Below, piece after piece: positions 3,649-12,821 of a DNA stretch of 32,253 nt. Position 1 is the stretch's first letter; every line of letters begins with the position of its first letter. The stretch is taken from contig NZ_BOOA01000089.1 of assembly GCF_016862995.1 (NCBI RefSeq), positions 1-32,253 of the forward strand. Reading direction: 5' to 3'. This stretch comes from Acrocarpospora phusangensis. Its GTDB lineage: Bacteria > Actinomycetota > Actinomycetes > Streptosporangiales > Streptosporangiaceae. The notes under the pieces were generated by a model, which saw only the letters and a list, made by a program, of their open reading frames with translations, was not told the DNA's origin and did not search any database. The position numbers and the translations under genes are program-made.

Positions 3649-4570
3649 CGGCCCCGCCGTCGTTCATCGCGGCGGCCGCGGTGAGGACCCGGGCCCGGTA
3701 GCGACGCCGTACGAACCAGGCGAGCAGCAACAGCACCAGCAGCCCGCCGAGCAGCCCGCCGACCAGATGCACGGGAAACACGACGATCCGCACGGTACGG
3801 GCGGAGCCCGCGATCGACACCGTGGCATGGCAGACGCACATCAGCGGCGGGTTCCAGTCGAGGCTGACCTCGCGGGTCGCGCCGCGGACCACGGTGAAGT
3901 CGGGGAAGGGCACCTCGGAGCCGCCGACCTCGGCGTGCAGCCGGGTGGGCCCCCGGAAGTCGCGGTGCACCGTGCCGAGGCTGCGGATCCGCGCCGCGAT
4001 CGGCACCGGCCCGCCGAGGACGAACTCGGGAGCCTGAAGCCCGGCCACCTCGACCGAGCTGTCGATCACCCCGGGAACGGTGACGAAGACCGGCGTGGCG
4101 ATACCACGGTTGATCTTGATGTTCGCGCCGTTCTCACCCGCGGGGACCTTGAAGATCAGCGCGAACTGGTGGTCGCCCGGCTCCGGGACCGGCGGCACCT
4201 CCACCCGCACGGTCACGGTCCTGGTCGCCCCGGGAGCCATCCGGACGTTCGTCGGCGCCACGGTCGCCCACGCCGCCGCCGCGTACGGAGCCTGCGGCTG
4301 GAAGTTCAGCGCGCCGTTCTCACCCGCGACGAAGTCGGCCTTCTCCACGTTCACCTCGAACGGGGCACGTCCCCGGTTGGTGAGCTGGAACCGCTGCGTG
4401 GTGGCTTTCGCCCCGGCCGGGATGACCAGGCGGGTGGGGCTCACCTGCAACGAGAAGCTCGGCGGCCGGCCGGGATCGGCCAGGGCCGGGGTGCTGGGCC
4501 AGAGCAGGCACATGACCGTGCCCATGGCGAGCCGGCGCCGCCCGGCGCAGGGCCGAAAATGATTGTTCAA
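3641..4570 (-). CDS. WxL-interacting-like (DUF916-type) secreted protein with C-terminal membrane anchor
   Basis: A 309-residue protein. I chose TTG at 4570 as the start because GGAG (4579-4582) lies 8 bases before it and the result begins with a clean signal peptide: GRRRLAMGTVMCLLW followed by PSTPALA-D. A longer TTG start at 4594 is possible but has no good ribosome site. The mature part is all-beta, with FSLQVSPTRLVIPAGAKATT and a FQLTNRGRAPFEVNVE strand, as in the peptidoglycan-binding DUF916 domain of WxL-interacting proteins. Near the C-terminus a helix (VGGLLGGLLVLLLLAWFV) is followed by an arginine-rich tail, so the protein should sit in the membrane facing outward. It overlaps the giant lectin-repeat gene by 8 bases; the pair probably makes one surface assembly. 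The family call rests on architecture and pattern, not on a search. Confidence 0.8.
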   Translation of the reverse strand: MNNHFRPCAGRRRLAMGTVMCLLWPSTPALADPGRPPSFSLQVSPTRLVIPAGAKATTQRFQLTNRGRAPFEVNVEKADFVAGENGALNFQPQAPYAAAAWATVAPTNVRMAPGATRTVTVRVEVPPVPEPGDHQFALIFKVPAGENGANIKINRGIATPVFVTVPGVIDSSVEVAGLQAPEFVLGGPVPIAARIRSLGTVHRDFRGPTRLHAEVGGSEVPFPDFTVVRGATREVSLDWNPPLMCVCHATVSIAGSARTVRIVVFPVHLVGGLLGGLLVLLLLAWFVRRRYRARVLTAAAAMNDGGADV

Positions 4571-7996: not shown

Positions 7997-9577
7997 CTAG
8001 AACGGCCAGCCGGCCGAGTTCCCCGTCTCCAGCAGGGGGATGAGCTTGAAGGTCGCGTCCGACATCCCGCCGAACTCGTGCCGGTTGCCGCTCCCCGTGC
8101 GCATCGCCGCGTGCCGGTAACCCTGCAGGTTGAAGCCGTACATCGGGATGTGCTGGGGAGCCGCTTCGGTGACGTTGCCGCCGTACCCGCTCATGGTCTG
8201 CATGTCGGACAGGATCACGACGCGGTCGTGGCCCTTGTAGGTGGCGCGGACGGAGTCACCGATCTGGGTGCCGTGACCCACCTCGCCCACCCTGTCGCAG
8301 AACTTCTCGACCTCCTTGAGGACGGAAGCCCTCTTGCCGATCTTGTGCCGGAAGACGCCGGTGGCGAAGCCGTACAGGTCGACCTGCTCGCCCTTGGCGG
8401 CGAGGGCGACACCGAACAACGCCGCCGCCTGCACCGGGCTGATCGTCGACCTGGCCGAGATCGCGCCCGTGCTCATCGAGCCGGACGTGTCCACCAGCAC
8501 GAGCGTGCGCCCGCCGAACGCCGGCAGGTTGCCGGTCGCCAGCGTCAGCGCCCGGTCCAGCGCGTGCCCCCAGCGCAGCGACGGAGCCTGCTGGTAGGCC
8601 GAGTAGAACCGGAACGGCAGCTGCCGGGACCGCGCGACCTCGTCCGGAGCCGACAGCTTCGCGATGACGGCCGCGGCGGCCTCGTCGCCGACTCCCGCCT
8701 CGTCGAAGTTCCTGAGGTTCCTCAAAAGTGCCATATACCCCATCGACGGGATGATGGCCTCCCACGCCTGGGCGTCCATCGGACCCTGCAGCCAGCCCGC
8801 CAGCGACTCCCACGTCATCCCCGCCGAAGCCAGGCGCGCGGTGTCGATGAGAACCGTACGCCGCTCCTCGACCGGCAGAGCCAGCAGCTCGGCGCGGGCG
8901 CGAAGCATGCGCAGCGACTCCGGGATGGGGTTGTCCCGCCCATGCCGCCGGTCGAGAGCGTGCGCGAACAGGTCGCCCTGCCAGCTCACCTTGCCGGCGT
9001 CCGGAGCCGGGTGCACCAGATCGATGACGTCCGCGAACCGGAAACCCCGGGACTCGCCGTCGTACTTGGCCAGGTTCCGCTCGGTGTAGAGCCGCCGCAC
9101 CGCGTCGGCCACACCCCTCTTGACCGGCTTCGGAATGGTACGGCCATAGCGCGACATCCAGTAGCCGAGCGCCTCACCCGGCTCGTCCGCCCGCTGAAGC
9201 ACCCCGGCGACCAGCTCCCGGTTCCCACCGTGCCGACCGGCGGCAAGGCGAGCCCGTACGGACTCGAGCGCCGCGACCACCGGCGCGGACCGCATGTTCG
9301 CCGTCCCGCGCAGCCACGGCAGGAACCGCGACATCCAGTCGAGGTCCTCCACGGCCACCCGGTGCACGAGCTCACGGAACCGCGCGTCCCGCGCGTCGGC
9401 CTTCTCGTAGAAGGTGTCCTCGCCCACCATGTTCGACACCGCGAGCAGAAAGAGTTCGCCCTTCGCGTCCCGTACGAATCCCGGCGCACCCTCGTGCGTA
9501 CGCCCGGTCGGAACCGCTTCCGTGGCAACCGGGCTGAATACGGCCGCCCGGGTGTTGCGAGAATTGAACTTGGACAT
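7997..9577 (-). CDS. rsr: Ro60 orthologue: TROVE and von Willebrand A domain RNA-binding protein (Rsr)
   Basis: A 526-residue protein. Residues about 20-345 are the helical-repeat TROVE ring that binds Y RNAs on its outer surface and misfolded RNA ends in its cavity (GYWMSRYGRTIPKPVKRGVA; IPSMGYMALLRNLRNF are family-typical). Residues about 360-520 are a vWA domain with a complete metal-binding MIDAS, DTSGSMSTG. Length and order match bacterial Rsr proteins. ATG at 9577 follows an AAGGGGG ribosome site. Only 25 bases separate this start from the end of the Y RNA-like structure on the same strand, so the RNA and the mRNA may share a transcript. In Deinococcus, Rsr works with Y RNA and PNPase in RNA decay and with ribonucleases in rRNA maturation; a similar role here is inferred. 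No rtcB/rtcA or exonuclease gene is adjacent. Confidence 0.95.
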   Translation of the reverse strand: MSKFNSRNTRAAVFSPVATEAVPTGRTHEGAPGFVRDAKGELFLLAVSNMVGEDTFYEKADARDARFRELVHRVAVEDLDWMSRFLPWLRGTANMRSAPVVAALESVRARLAAGRHGGNRELVAGVLQRADEPGEALGYWMSRYGRTIPKPVKRGVADAVRRLYTERNLAKYDGESRGFRFADVIDLVHPAPDAGKVSWQGDLFAHALDRRHGRDNPIPESLRMLRARAELLALPVEERRTVLIDTARLASAGMTWESLAGWLQGPMDAQAWEAIIPSMGYMALLRNLRNFDEAGVGDEAAAAVIAKLSAPDEVARSRQLPFRFYSAYQQAPSLRWGHALDRALTLATGNLPAFGGRTLVLVDTSGSMSTGAISARSTISPVQAAALFGVALAAKGEQVDLYGFATGVFRHKIGKRASVLKEVEKFCDRVGEVGHGTQIGDSVRATYKGHDRVVILSDMQTMSGYGGNVTEAAPQHIPMYGFNLQGYRHAAMRTGSGNRHEFGGMSDATFKLIPLLETGNSAGWPF

Positions 9578-9602
9578 GTCGAAGGCCCCCTTCCACTCGA
9601 AT

Positions 9603-9784
9603 GGAGGGGCTTATGACAGAAGTCGTACCCGAGATCAAAGGCGGCGACGGACACAGCGCTCTGCCAACTGAGCTACGCCCGGCGGGAGGGCCGGACGGCA
9701 GGACTCGAACCTGCGACCACTCGATCTCAATTCGAAGGAACCGTTGCCTGCGCACCGGGCACGCTTCTGACATCGTGCCCCTCC
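9603..9784 (-). ncRNA. YrlA-type Y RNA with circularly permuted tRNA-like module
   Basis: Read on the minus strand, the ends form a Ro-binding stem. GGAGGGGC (9777-9784) pairs with GCCCCTCC (9603-9610). After a small internal loop, AUG pairs with CAU. Then come a U-U mismatch, CAGAAG with CUUCUG, a bulged A (9623), and CGUGCCC (9757-9763) with GGGUACG (9624-9630). Further in, GGCAACGG pairs with CCGUCGCC with one mismatch. The head mimics a tRNA in permuted order. A perfect T arm (GCAGGTTCGAGTCCTGC, 9698-9714) comes first. Next is a 7-pair acceptor-like stem plus one extra pair (9676-9683 with 9690-9697), closed by a 6-base loop instead of ending in CCA. Then come U8-A9 and a perfect D arm (GCTCAGTTGGCAGAGC, 9658-9673) with GG in its loop. 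A 5-pair, 7-base-loop hairpin (TTCGA-ATTGAGA-TCGAG) precedes the T arm. Order, closed acceptor and location beside rsr all match YrlA RNAs. Exact ends and promoter are not determined. Confidence 0.88.
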
Positions 9785-10019
9785 GAGATCACATCGCATG
9801 ATGCACCGGAGAGATGCATATGAAGTTGTGCTGAAAGTCTCAGGCCGCAGAGGTCAAAGGCAGCGCCGGCACAGTTTCTATTGGAAGGAGAAGTAACCGG
9901 AACTTTCGCACCTGCAGCACTTCCTACGTTATCCACCCACGCGCGAAAGCACATCTGATTATTCGTGGATAGGGTTTCCCGGAATCGAGCCGTGGCTATG
10001 CGGGCCGCGCGCGCCTAGC

Positions 10020-12821
10020 ATGGGCGGGGTGGACGGCCTGTTCGAGCGTGGACGAGAGCTTGACGAACTCGACGCCCACTTCGTGCGGGTCACCGCAGGA
10101 GAAGGCCGCCTGGTGGTGGTCGAGGGGCCCGCGGGGATCGGCAAGAGCCGGCTGCTCACTGAGATCCGCCGCCGCGCGGAGGGTTCCATGCGCGTGCTCT
10201 CGGCCCGGGGCAGTGGGCTTGAGGGAGAGTTCGCGTTCGGCGTGGTCCGCCAGTTGTTCGAGGCGGAGCTGAGGGGTCCGGAGCGCAGGGAGGCGTTGCT
10301 CGCCGGTGCGGCGGCGCCGGCAGCGGCGATCTTCGGCGAGCTGGGGTCCGGCGCGGACGGCGGGGGCGCCACGTTCGCGTCCCTGCACGGGCTGTACTGG
10401 CTCGTGCTCAACCTGGCCGAGGACGCGCCGCTGCTGCTGGCCGTGGATGACCTGCACTGGTGTGACCGGCCGTCGCTGCTGTTCCTCGCGTACCTGGCCA
10501 GGCGGCTGGAGAGCCAGCCCATCCTGCTGCTCATGGGTCTGCGGGACACGGAGCCCGGCACCGATCCCACGTTGATCGGCGAGATCACGCACGACCCGGG
10601 CGCGATCAGGATCCGCCCCCGGCCGCTGACCGGGTCCGGCGTGGCGGAGTTCATCCGGGATCGCCTGGGCGTGGCGCCGGATGACGGGTTCCTGGCCGTC
10701 TGCCACGAATCCACTGGAGGCAATCCGCTCCTGCTCAGCCAGCTGGTGACGGCGCTGCGCAGCGAAGGCGTACACCCAGATGCCGGAAATGTCGGGCGGG
10801 TGACGGCCATCGGGCCCCGGGCGGTGTCGCGTACGGTCCTGCTGAGGCTTGCCCGCCTGCCGGCCGACGCGCGGGCGGTCGCCCAGGCGGTCGCGGTGCT
10901 GGGCGACGGAGCTGGCATCCCGGCCGTGGCCAAGCTAGCCGGGGTCGAGGAGGCACGCGCGGCCGACGCGACACGCGGCCTCGCCCACTCCGACATCCTG
11001 CGCCCGGAACTCCCCCTCTCCTTCGTCCACCCCCTGGTACGCGACGCGATCTACCACGAACTCTCCCCCGGCGAACGCGAACTCCAGCACGCGCGGGCGG
11101 CGGCGCTCCTCCGCGACCACGCCGCACCCGCCGAGCAGGTGGCCGCGCAACTCCTGCACACCTCCCCGCGCGGCGAACGCTGGGCCGCCGACCTGCTGCG
11201 GGAGGCGGCGCGCGACGCGACGCACGCCGGAGCGGCGGACAGCGCCGTCGCCTACCTGCGGCGCGCGCTCGACGACATGCCCGCGGGCCGGGACCGGGGA
11301 CGGCTGCTGCTGGAACTCGGCGCGGCGGAGGCGTTCACGAGCGGCCCGGCCGCGGCGAAGCACCTGGCCCTCGCCTACGAGGAGTTACCCGACCCCGCCT
11401 CCCGCGCCGCCGCGGCCGGCCTGCTCGGCAGGGCCCTGCTGTTCCTGGGCCGCCCCGAGGAAGCCGGCGCGATCGCGCTGCGGGCGGCGGGGGAACTCCC
11501 GGACGACCTGGCCGACCTTCGCATGGGCCTCGAAGCGCTCGAATTCATGACCATTATCTTCATGGCGGGCGACCCGCAACGCCTGTCGCGGCTCCGCCCG
11601 TACCGGCACCTTCCCACGGGAGGGCCCGGCTCGCGCATGCTCGCCGCCATGGCCGCGTGGGAGGCGGTCTGCACCGACGGCGACGCCTACGAATGCGCCG
11701 CGCTGGCCCTCGCGGCGCTCGCCGACGACCACCTCAGGACGGCCGATCCCGCTCTGATCGTGTTCGCGGCCATCGTCACCCTCGTCATCACCGACCGCCC
11801 CGAGGTGACCGACGTCTGGCAGCCGTTCATCGCCGACACGCACCGGCGCGGTTCCCTGTTCTCGGCGGCGTCGATCCACCTCTGGCACGGCTTCAGCCAC
11901 CTGCGCCGCGGCGACCTGGCCGCGGCCGAGGAGTCGCTGCGGGCGGCCGAGGGCCAGTTCACGCTCTGGGGCCACGCCGACGACTCCGTCGCCATCTGCC
12001 GTACCTTCCTGGCCGAGGTCCTGCACGAGCGTGGCCGCTCCGCCGACGTCTCCTCCCTTCTGGTACGCCTTGGAACGGTCGATCCCGGAAAGAACACGAC
12101 AGGCTGGTGGCTGGGCACCCGCGCGGTCCTGCTCCTCGCCGACGGCCGGGCGGAGGAGGCCGTGGCCGTGGCCGACGCGCTGGCGGCGTACAGCGAGGCC
12201 ATCCCGCATCCGGGCAGGCTCTGGTGGCGGTCGATGAAGGCCGAGGCGCTCGACCGGCTGGACCGCAGGGCGGAGGCGGTCGAGCTGGCCCGGCAGGAGC
12301 TGGAGGTCACGCGGGCGTTCGGCGCGCCCGGGTCGCTCGGGCGGTCCTTACGGGTGCTGGGCACGCTGGAGCGGGACGAGGATCGGCTGCGGGAGGCGGT
12401 GGCCGTACTCGAAAGGTCCACGGCGCGGCTGGAGTACGCGAAGGCGCTGGCCGCGCTCGGGTCCACGCTCAGACGGGCGAAGAAGCCGACCGAGGCGCGG
12501 GAGCCGCTGCGGCGCGCGCTGGAGGTGGCCAGCGCGTGTGGCGCGGAGCGCCTGGCCGAGCAGGTCCGGGCGGAGTTGCACGCCTGCGGGGCCCGGCCGC
12601 GGCGGGACGCGCTCAGCGGGGTCCAGTCGCTCACGCCCGGAGAACGCCGCGTCGTGGACCTCGCCGCCGCCGGGCGCACCAACCGCGACATCGCCCAGGA
12701 GCTGTACGTGACTCCGGGGACGGTGGAGGTCCATCTCTCCAACGCGTACCGCAAACTCGGGATCCGGTCGCGGTCCGAGCTCGACCGCGTGCTCACCGCG
12801 GCGGTCGCGAGCATTTCCTAG
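10020..12821 (+). CDS. LuxR-family regulator with N-terminal AAA/NTPase domain (LAL type)
   Basis: A 933-residue protein. Residues 10-250 form a STAND-type ATPase module with Walker A GPAGIGKS (36-43) and Walker B LLLAVDDLHW (about 138-147). Residues about 350-860 are Ala/Leu-rich helical repeats of TPR type. The C-terminal 65 residues are a LuxR helix-turn-helix (LTPGERRVVDLAAAGRTNRD, then VTPGTVEVHLSNAYRKLGI). Such proteins activate transcription after binding ATP and an inducer, as MalT does; the inducer here is unknown. ATG at 10020 is kept, but no ribosome site precedes it. TAGCAT at 10016-10021 could be a -10 box, giving a leaderless transcript starting at GTG 10029. The gene diverges from the Y RNA/rsr unit across 235 bases (9785-10019) in which I see no other gene. 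The flavoprotein gene lies 118 bases downstream and may be a target. Confidence 0.93.
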   Translation: MGGVDGLFERGRELDELDAHFVRVTAGEGRLVVVEGPAGIGKSRLLTEIRRRAEGSMRVLSARGSGLEGEFAFGVVRQLFEAELRGPERREALLAGAAAPAAAIFGELGSGADGGGATFASLHGLYWLVLNLAEDAPLLLAVDDLHWCDRPSLLFLAYLARRLESQPILLLMGLRDTEPGTDPTLIGEITHDPGAIRIRPRPLTGSGVAEFIRDRLGVAPDDGFLAVCHESTGGNPLLLSQLVTALRSEGVHPDAGNVGRVTAIGPRAVSRTVLLRLARLPADARAVAQAVAVLGDGAGIPAVAKLAGVEEARAADATRGLAHSDILRPELPLSFVHPLVRDAIYHELSPGERELQHARAAALLRDHAAPAEQVAAQLLHTSPRGERWAADLLREAARDATHAGAADSAVAYLRRALDDMPAGRDRGRLLLELGAAEAFTSGPAAAKHLALAYEELPDPASRAAAAGLLGRALLFLGRPEEAGAIALRAAGELPDDLADLRMGLEALEFMTIIFMAGDPQRLSRLRPYRHLPTGGPGSRMLAAMAAWEAVCTDGDAYECAALALAALADDHLRTADPALIVFAAIVTLVITDRPEVTDVWQPFIADTHRRGSLFSAASIHLWHGFSHLRRGDLAAAEESLRAAEGQFTLWGHADDSVAICRTFLAEVLHERGRSADVSSLLVRLGTVDPGKNTTGWWLGTRAVLLLADGRAEEAVAVADALAAYSEAIPHPGRLWWRSMKAEALDRLDRRAEAVELARQELEVTRAFGAPGSLGRSLRVLGTLERDEDRLREAVAVLERSTARLEYAKALAALGSTLRRAKKPTEAREPLRRALEVASACGAERLAEQVRAELHACGARPRRDALSGVQSLTPGERRVVDLAAAGRTNRDIAQELYVTPGTVEVHLSNAYRKLGIRSRSELDRVLTAAVASIS

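Follow-up and report, generated by a model that had tools for sequence, protein, structure and literature searches.

A probable Ro60-associated Y RNA of Acrocarpospora phusangensis that resembles a complete, permuted tRNA

In known bacterial Ro60 particles, the stem of a Y RNA holds the Ro60 protein Rsr, which is tethered by this RNA to PNPase in Deinococcus (excerpts of PMC4726728 and PMC8394870). The closest described relative of the RNA reported here is Salmonella YrlA (PDB 6CU1, as cited in PMC8394870; Rfam RF02553), with which it shares a Ro60 neighbour and a stem formed by the terminal strands, and whose tRNA-like domain has been suggested to be a competitive inhibitor of an anticodon nuclease (PMC7790460, in part). 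Our object of study was a 32,253-nt stretch of the A. phusangensis genome (contig NZ_BOOA01000089.1), which in its entirety we call the window. The original prediction had placed here, beside the Ro60 gene, a Y RNA with a permuted tRNA mimic that tRNA finders would miss, and this was supported, with neither ARAGORN nor the Rfam tRNA model calling a tRNA at the Y RNA. An rsr gene adjoins the RNA, a long bulged stem of the Ro60 type is formed from its 5′ and 3′ ends, and between these lie a permuted T arm, a closed acceptor stem and a D arm. From the comparisons below, we think it likely that this is a Ro60-bound Y RNA of the YrlA kind that mimics a complete tRNA, with four arms and a closed acceptor, opened at positions 26/27.

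On the minus strand, we confirmed each of the predicted tRNA-like elements (T arm, acceptor hairpin, U8-A9 and D arm), along with the interrupted outer stem of 24 pairs (counted by eye) and its U-U mismatch and bulged A, to which we add a small internal loop (Table 1). The 5′ strand of this stem shows one compensatory G-C/A-U change, noted by eye, relative to the same-genus locus L007. The acceptor loop had been given as six bases, which is right if an eighth C-G pair closes the stem, as happens in the minimum-energy fold; with the tRNA-like seven pairs, the loop is 8 nt. Where the original prediction went wrong was in having the tRNA cut at the anticodon. The GGUUNCUUC motif is followed, ahead of the T arm, by a five-pair stem with a seven-base loop, which is an anticodon arm (9736-9720), and then by a variable loop (9719-9715), placing the opening at 26/27. 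The order of anticodon arm, variable loop, T arm, acceptor hairpin and D arm includes every arm of a tRNA, and the arrangement reads as a whole tRNA opened between nucleotides 26 and 27, with the Ro60 stem apparently entering at the opening. Our covariance model R1 matched the window Y RNA, which itself belongs to the R1 training set.

Table 1. Positions of the rsr gene, the Y RNA and its parts, and neighbouring Y RNA features in the window
Feature	Position	Strand	Basis or remark
rsr, Ro60 homologue, 526 aa	7997..9577	-	TROVE PF05731, E 1.5e-14
Y RNA, delimited by outer stem	9603..9784	-	5′ end near 9784, 3′ end near 9603; ends approximate; R1 match 9628-9759
Conserved unit CCCGGUGCG...GAUCUCGGG	9628..9759	-	alignment with 24 other units
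Outer stem, 5′ strand	9757..9784	-	partner 9603-9630; strand reading, fold
Outer stem, 3′ strand	9603..9630	-	strand reading, fold
Inner Ro60-type helix, 5′ strand GGCAACGG, one A-C mismatch here	9741..9748	-	covariation
Inner Ro60-type helix, 3′ strand CCGUCGCC	9643..9650	-	covariation
Anticodon arm UUCGA-AUUGAGA-UCGAG	9720..9736	-	triplet UGA 9729-9727, U33 9730
Variable loop UGGUC, 5 nt	9715..9719	-	strand reading
T arm GCAGG-UUCGAGU-CCUGC	9698..9714	-	strand reading, Rfam YrlA match
Acceptor stem closed as hairpin, CGUCCGG-CCCUCCCG-CCGGGCG, no CCA	9676..9697	-	strand reading, covariation
U8 A9, D arm GCUC-AGUUGGCA-GAGC, G26	9657..9675	-	D arm 9673-9658
Candidate remnant of a third Y RNA, effector domain gone, Ro motifs kept	9780..9822	-	comparison with L007
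Second small Y RNA, no tRNA domain (YrlB-like), upstream	9847..9915	-	R1 31.7 bits, E 6.2e-5; Ro-stem motifs read in sequence

The product of the window rsr gene scored below the cut-off of the vWA_Ro60 model, and a profile built from 13 homologues matched Ro60/Rsr structures (e.g., 2nvo, E 1.5e-9). The closest rsr genes belong to a same-genus relative (85%) and to Planobispora and Planomonospora (79-80%). The label YrlB for the small upstream Y RNA is taken over from the Salmonella rsr-yrlBA operon, and the run of Y RNAs together with rsr may form one transcription unit; neither a sigma-70-like promoter nor an intrinsic terminator was found within 9500-10100. The candidate remnant of a third Y RNA drew a weak R1 match (9782-9810, E 0.47 only), and the same-genus relative L007 carries a longer version of it. 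The genome also holds a second, diverged Ro60-like gene (L233, G000:C7:16369-17334; about 42-44% identical), in the 7 kb around which R1 and our parser of tRNA-like units found no Y RNA; ARAGORN made one tRNA-Gly call near it. Another ARAGORN call, an undetermined tRNA at 3972-4054 (-) of the window, looks like a false positive.

The 3′ end of the Y RNA stands 25 nt ahead of the rsr start codon, directly ahead of which an imperfect hairpin at 9582-9612 (-) masks the Shine-Dalgarno sequence. Because the 5′ arm of this hairpin shares nucleotides with the outer stem of the Y RNA, only one of the two can form at a time, and 9603-9610 could pair either with the 5′ end of the Y RNA or with the Shine-Dalgarno region. 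This proximity would suit a regulatory part of the rsr leader that acts in cis on rsr expression and is not a separate RNA at all, as would the finding that, at 57 of 72 named loci, the region from -16 to -6 of rsr was paired to a greater extent than its shuffled versions (mean 0.71 vs 0.56). Among the loci listed, however, tandem Y RNAs often precede rsr, and such arrays of several units, like the units lying away from any found Ro60 gene at L232, fit separate RNAs; we consider a purely cis-acting element quite unlikely.

Near rsr genes, we observed two topologies: class 1, in which the anticodon hairpin is kept, and class 2, which is opened at the anticodon loop as Rfam models it. A parser that looked for the T arm, acceptor hairpin and D arm only returned 70 units, 62 of them with the Ro motif; most parsed units were class 1 or class 2, and several genomes carried both. 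A motif-only list of 145 units, which includes false ones inside genes and joined neighbours, was excluded from the counts. The open-loop stem of class 2 (27-31/39-43) has three of its five pairs in the window unit, which falls outside that class. The expected match to the Rfam YrlA model was indeed obtained (9721-9655 (-), E 3.1e-4), but at 35.2 bits it lies below the gathering cut-off of 69 bits, and with the anticodon arm retained and the open-loop stem incomplete, the plain YrlA assignment is not supported in the form first proposed. The Rfam model itself seems narrow, because its gathering score was reached in none of the 20 rsr loci searched; the best score in 12 loci was 48.8 bits. At L051, L053, L079, L237:2141-2284 and L235:2292-2423, units combine a D arm like that of tRNA-Leu with a long variable region, and these may mimic the class II tRNA shape too.

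The Y RNA region folded better than its shuffles (z -5.0, 0 of 200 as low), and the compensatory changes anticipated by the original prediction were present. Across an alignment of 25 whole units, picked partly for pairing, 96.0% of cells were paired, compared with 39-54% in slid controls, and two-sided changes occurred in 19 of 33 pairs; the inner Ro60-type helix (helix 2) has them in five of its eight pairs. The anticodon arm is the part that would set this RNA apart, and it could instead be a neutral spacer on a plain YrlA that resembles an anticodon arm by chance. The Rfam YrlA structure, which shows T, acceptor and D arms only, agrees with such a spacer, and folding programs omit the hairpin: RNAalifold on A1 found the Ro, T, acceptor and D helices and no anticodon arm, and on the hairpin segments (A4) it likewise predicted none. 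Single-sequence folding prefers other structures, with 6 of the 32 proposed pairs in the minimum-energy fold of the window sequence; the corresponding fold of one L028 unit contained 33 of 33.

We took as our measure 118 units chosen by the Ro motif, T arm, acceptor and D arm, with the hairpin not a criterion, loci from L168 on excluded and identical units counted once. In 81 of these, the distance from UUC to the T stem was the 21 or 22 nt typical of class 1; the 37 without this spacing again speak for a spacer, though about five of them hold a shifted hairpin. Within the 81, pairing at four or five of the five stem positions was found in 73, whereas re-dealt 3′ strands gave a mean of 46 and a maximum of 58, and the loop frame was largely constant (U33 in 70, R37 in 75 and A38 in 73). 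For 51 distinct segments with a spacing of 22, 88.6% of anticodon stem cells were paired, a level that none of 500 shuffles reached and that compares with 25-57% in slid controls, and 29 cells carried two-sided changes vs 12 in shuffles. Pair 30-40 alternates between C-G and G-C (24 and 21 sequences), two of the five pairs vary on one side only, and one departs only by unpaired cells; the count of pairs with two-sided change was not above shuffles (341/500). Most of the 81 units have a seven-nucleotide loop with U33, R37 and A38 at a constant spacing from the T arm, the stem switches bases while preserving pairing, and the design recurs in one Deinococcus plasmid and in some phages. All of this argues against a chance resemblance, and we judge a neutral spacer to be unlikely. 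The class-1 pattern occurred once in the whole window with both strands scanned, and was absent from 80 reversed viral contigs, 80 reversed named loci and 52 stretches around the ordinary tRNAs of the genome.

We tabulated the anticodon triplet in 90 distinct class-1 units, a set limited to units with Ro motifs on either side and to loci numbered below L168. The 84 with U33 showed 28 triplets, of which GUU was the commonest (15), and which included A34 triplets such as AGG and one UCA; L008 and L089 are counted among the six without U33 through a frame shift of the parser, and ARAGORN reads both as CUC. In two groups of eight units, which we took as orthologous, positions 32, 33, 37 and 38 were invariant. 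Ranked by entropy, positions 34 and 35 came 5th of 105 columns in the putative Streptomyces group, where 36 was invariant, and positions 34, 35 and 36 came 2nd, 8th and 8th of 102 columns in the Lentzea group, which consists of seven Lentzea and one genome titled Nocardia. Fourteen named loci held two or more class-1 sites, and in every one of them the triplets differed. G36 went together with G37 in 7 of 8 distinct U33 loops, vs 7 of 31 for the remainder (Fisher p 0.0014, uncorrected for relatedness), a coupling that resembles real tRNAs.

We also considered that each unit mimics one particular tRNA species, and rejected this. With the triplet masked and units without U33 additionally dropped, the best match of the body among 56 tRNAs of its own genome predicted the amino acid of the anticodon in only 7 of 85 units (4.2 expected; 598 of 5000 shuffles as high); among Glu-bodied units, 5 of 11 had a Glu triplet. 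Since the triplet varies, its neighbours are fixed and the body does not predict it, what appears to be kept is the frame of the anticodon loop (mostly U33, R37 and A38) and not an amino acid identity.

This uncoupling of body and anticodon bears on whether the locus could be a working circularly permuted tRNA gene, with both junctions processed and ligated to give a tRNA. All arms are present, such genes are known from algae and archaea (PMC3978253 and PMC3218864, in part), and ARAGORN called 90 of 90 units tRNAs once they had been un-permuted by script, although these were selected for their arms and had ACCA appended. However, the genome has 57 ordinary Rfam tRNA matches, Ser-UGA among them, and ARAGORN run on the fetched tRNA stretches gave 57 distinct sequences, one undetermined and again with Ser-UGA. 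The acceptor strands stand 6-8 nt apart with no CCA, the Ro60-type stem is conserved, and other units bear A34 triplets such as AGG. The Ser anticodon of the window unit sits on a body without the long variable arm that Ser tRNA requires. The unit thus supplies neither a missing anticodon nor a chargeable tRNA, and we consider a functional permuted tRNA gene very improbable.

The association with Ro60 was strong across genomes. Ro60 was found in 44 of 120 genomes of the family and in 37 of 296 genomes of the class, and when R1 was run over the latter, 35 genomes had a match of 60 bits or more, namely 34 of the 37 with Ro60 (29 of 32 after dropping five training genomes) vs 1 of the 259 others. 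That one genome, G252, matched at a tandem tRNA-Asn pair, and the Ro60 genomes without such a match were G086, G129 and G253. R1 also matches class-2 units. Four weak R1 matches away from Ro60, at 52.5-60.7 bits (G252, G224, G345 and G261), each lay at two tandem tRNA-Asn genes, and a fifth, of 40 bits in G147, lay at a tRNA-Glu/Asp pair; G224 has Ro60 elsewhere. In 43 loci searched from outside the family, 58 R1 matches reached E 1e-7 or better.

Of the 572 named rsr loci found, the best 80 were scanned, and 56 of these carried full class-1 units, for which the hairpin, T arm, acceptor and D arm were all required. When class 1 was instead defined by the Ro motif, hairpin and T arm, the count was 58 of the same best 80 of 572, with frequent occurrence in Lentzea (10/10), Rhodococcus (3/3), Saccharothrix (2/2) and Actinomadura (10/13), a lower one in Streptomyces (3/11) and none in Catenulispora or Catenulisporales (0/5). 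Among rsr-bearing viral contigs, which may include host stretches, 43 of 80 (the best 80 of 228) carried class-1 units, 51 in all and 45 with U33. Phage-record loci had them in 3 of 16 cases (Gordonia phage VanLee, Xanthomonas phage Olaya and Bacillus phage G), the strict scan finding none in the other 13; a Caulobacter phage unit that the scan misses is class 1 by eye. One of four plasmid loci had a class-1 unit (Deinococcus taeanensis), and a unit on a Deinococcus gobiensis plasmid is class 2 by eye.

Several observations were made in passing at these loci. L232:707-985 holds a pair of Y RNA-like units, of which one has a class-1 hairpin, and the 5′ motif there is a different one (GGTTATC); the Ro60 matches found in this genome, of the same family, are diverged and on another contig. 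Four annotated phage tRNA features adjoin Ro60 and overlap Y RNA model matches (L171:2704-2775 and L168:2769-2843, tRNA-Arg; L240:2274-2347, tRNA-Ser; L174:2745-2835, tRNA-Pro), and these may be misannotated Y RNAs. The Rfam tRNA model barely passes its cut-off (30.1 vs 29 bits) over part of the Y RNA at L010:3192-3263 (-), which is another route to misannotation. In Streptomyces phage Kela (L241:1729-2481), an annotated RNA ligase gene stands directly ahead of a Ro60-like gene.

Taken together, the comparison of sequences points to a permuted four-arm anatomy, linkage to Ro60 genes, covariation, and a conserved loop frame around a varying triplet. From this we infer that the RNA is transcribed, would bind the neighbouring Ro60, would adopt the L fold and could serve as a platform for proteins that read the tRNA body. 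In such a particle, the long bulged stem would be the handle for the Ro60 encoded just downstream, and the closed acceptor end would preclude aminoacylation. Held by Ro60, the RNA would present a whole tRNA body, including the anticodon loop, and the added anticodon arm should thereby attract proteins that read this loop. Candidate readers would be PNPase or another effector nuclease, enzymes that modify tRNA, and anticodon nucleases. We give recruitment of an effector about an even chance, which makes it more likely than a role as a decoy.

As a decoy, the RNA would be held by Ro60 as a target for anticodon nucleases, and its triplet would vary as the attackers vary. On this account one would expect what the two orthologous groups of eight show, with the triplet among the most variable columns and its neighbours in the loop invariant, and also the different triplets at each of the 14 named loci that hold two or more class-1 sites, but within-locus differences are expected from diversity alone, and free variation could simply reflect missing constraint. 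Hughes et al. proposed a competitive-inhibitor role for the tRNA-like domain of YrlA (PMC7790460, in part), yet according to the same excerpts, tRNA cleavage in Salmonella yields no detected YrlA fragments. The Ro60 genes of five phages sit in tRNA clusters, and one adjoins an RNA ligase gene; the strict scan, however, found no class-1 unit in those five phages, and the analysis identified no nuclease. We thus regard a decoy role as somewhat unlikely. More speculative still is a broader picture, which we hold to be rather doubtful, in which actinomycetes, at least one deinococcus and many phages or proviruses would all possess Ro60 Y RNAs that copy a whole tRNA and whose anticodon changes fast. 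Ro60 would hold these RNAs out to enzymes attacking or editing the anticodon loop, as bait or as sensors, in conflicts that involve tRNA cleavage.

Should a widespread class of Y RNAs indeed retain the anticodon arm, with the triplet varying inside a constant frame, then the anticodon loop is probably what its partner reads. Were this true, it would narrow the search for the function of the Ro60 particle and could tie Ro60 particles to tRNA damage, and class-1 Y RNAs may account for some of the phage 'tRNA' annotations beside Ro60 genes. No report of an anticodon arm in a Y RNA appeared among the titles and abstract openings of the matches listed, and its novelty is provisional; an anticodon-arm-bearing Y RNA may possibly be familiar to specialists already, though we lean towards thinking it is not.

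Compared with known systems, the RNA described here is closest to YrlA, having the same permuted sequence of T arm, closed acceptor and D arm. For YrlA, however, D, T and acceptor arms are described (PMC8394870, in part), whereas the window RNA adds an anticodon hairpin and is opened at 26/27. The Rfam structure line for YrlA likewise has no anticodon hairpin, from which it follows that in YrlA, as modelled, the Ro60 stem stands where the anticodon arm would be. YrlB-like and other short Y RNAs have the same Ro-stem motifs as the window RNA but lack its tRNA domain. The circularly permuted tRNA genes of algae and archaea also have the 5′ and 3′ parts of the tRNA swapped, but they yield functional tRNAs (PMC3978253, in part), whereas the window RNA has a Ro60-type stem at the junction and no CCA, in a genome that does not need such a gene. 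Finally, tmRNA is likewise a bacterial tRNA mimic, but while its acceptor end can be charged (PMC3985003, in part), that of the window RNA is closed.
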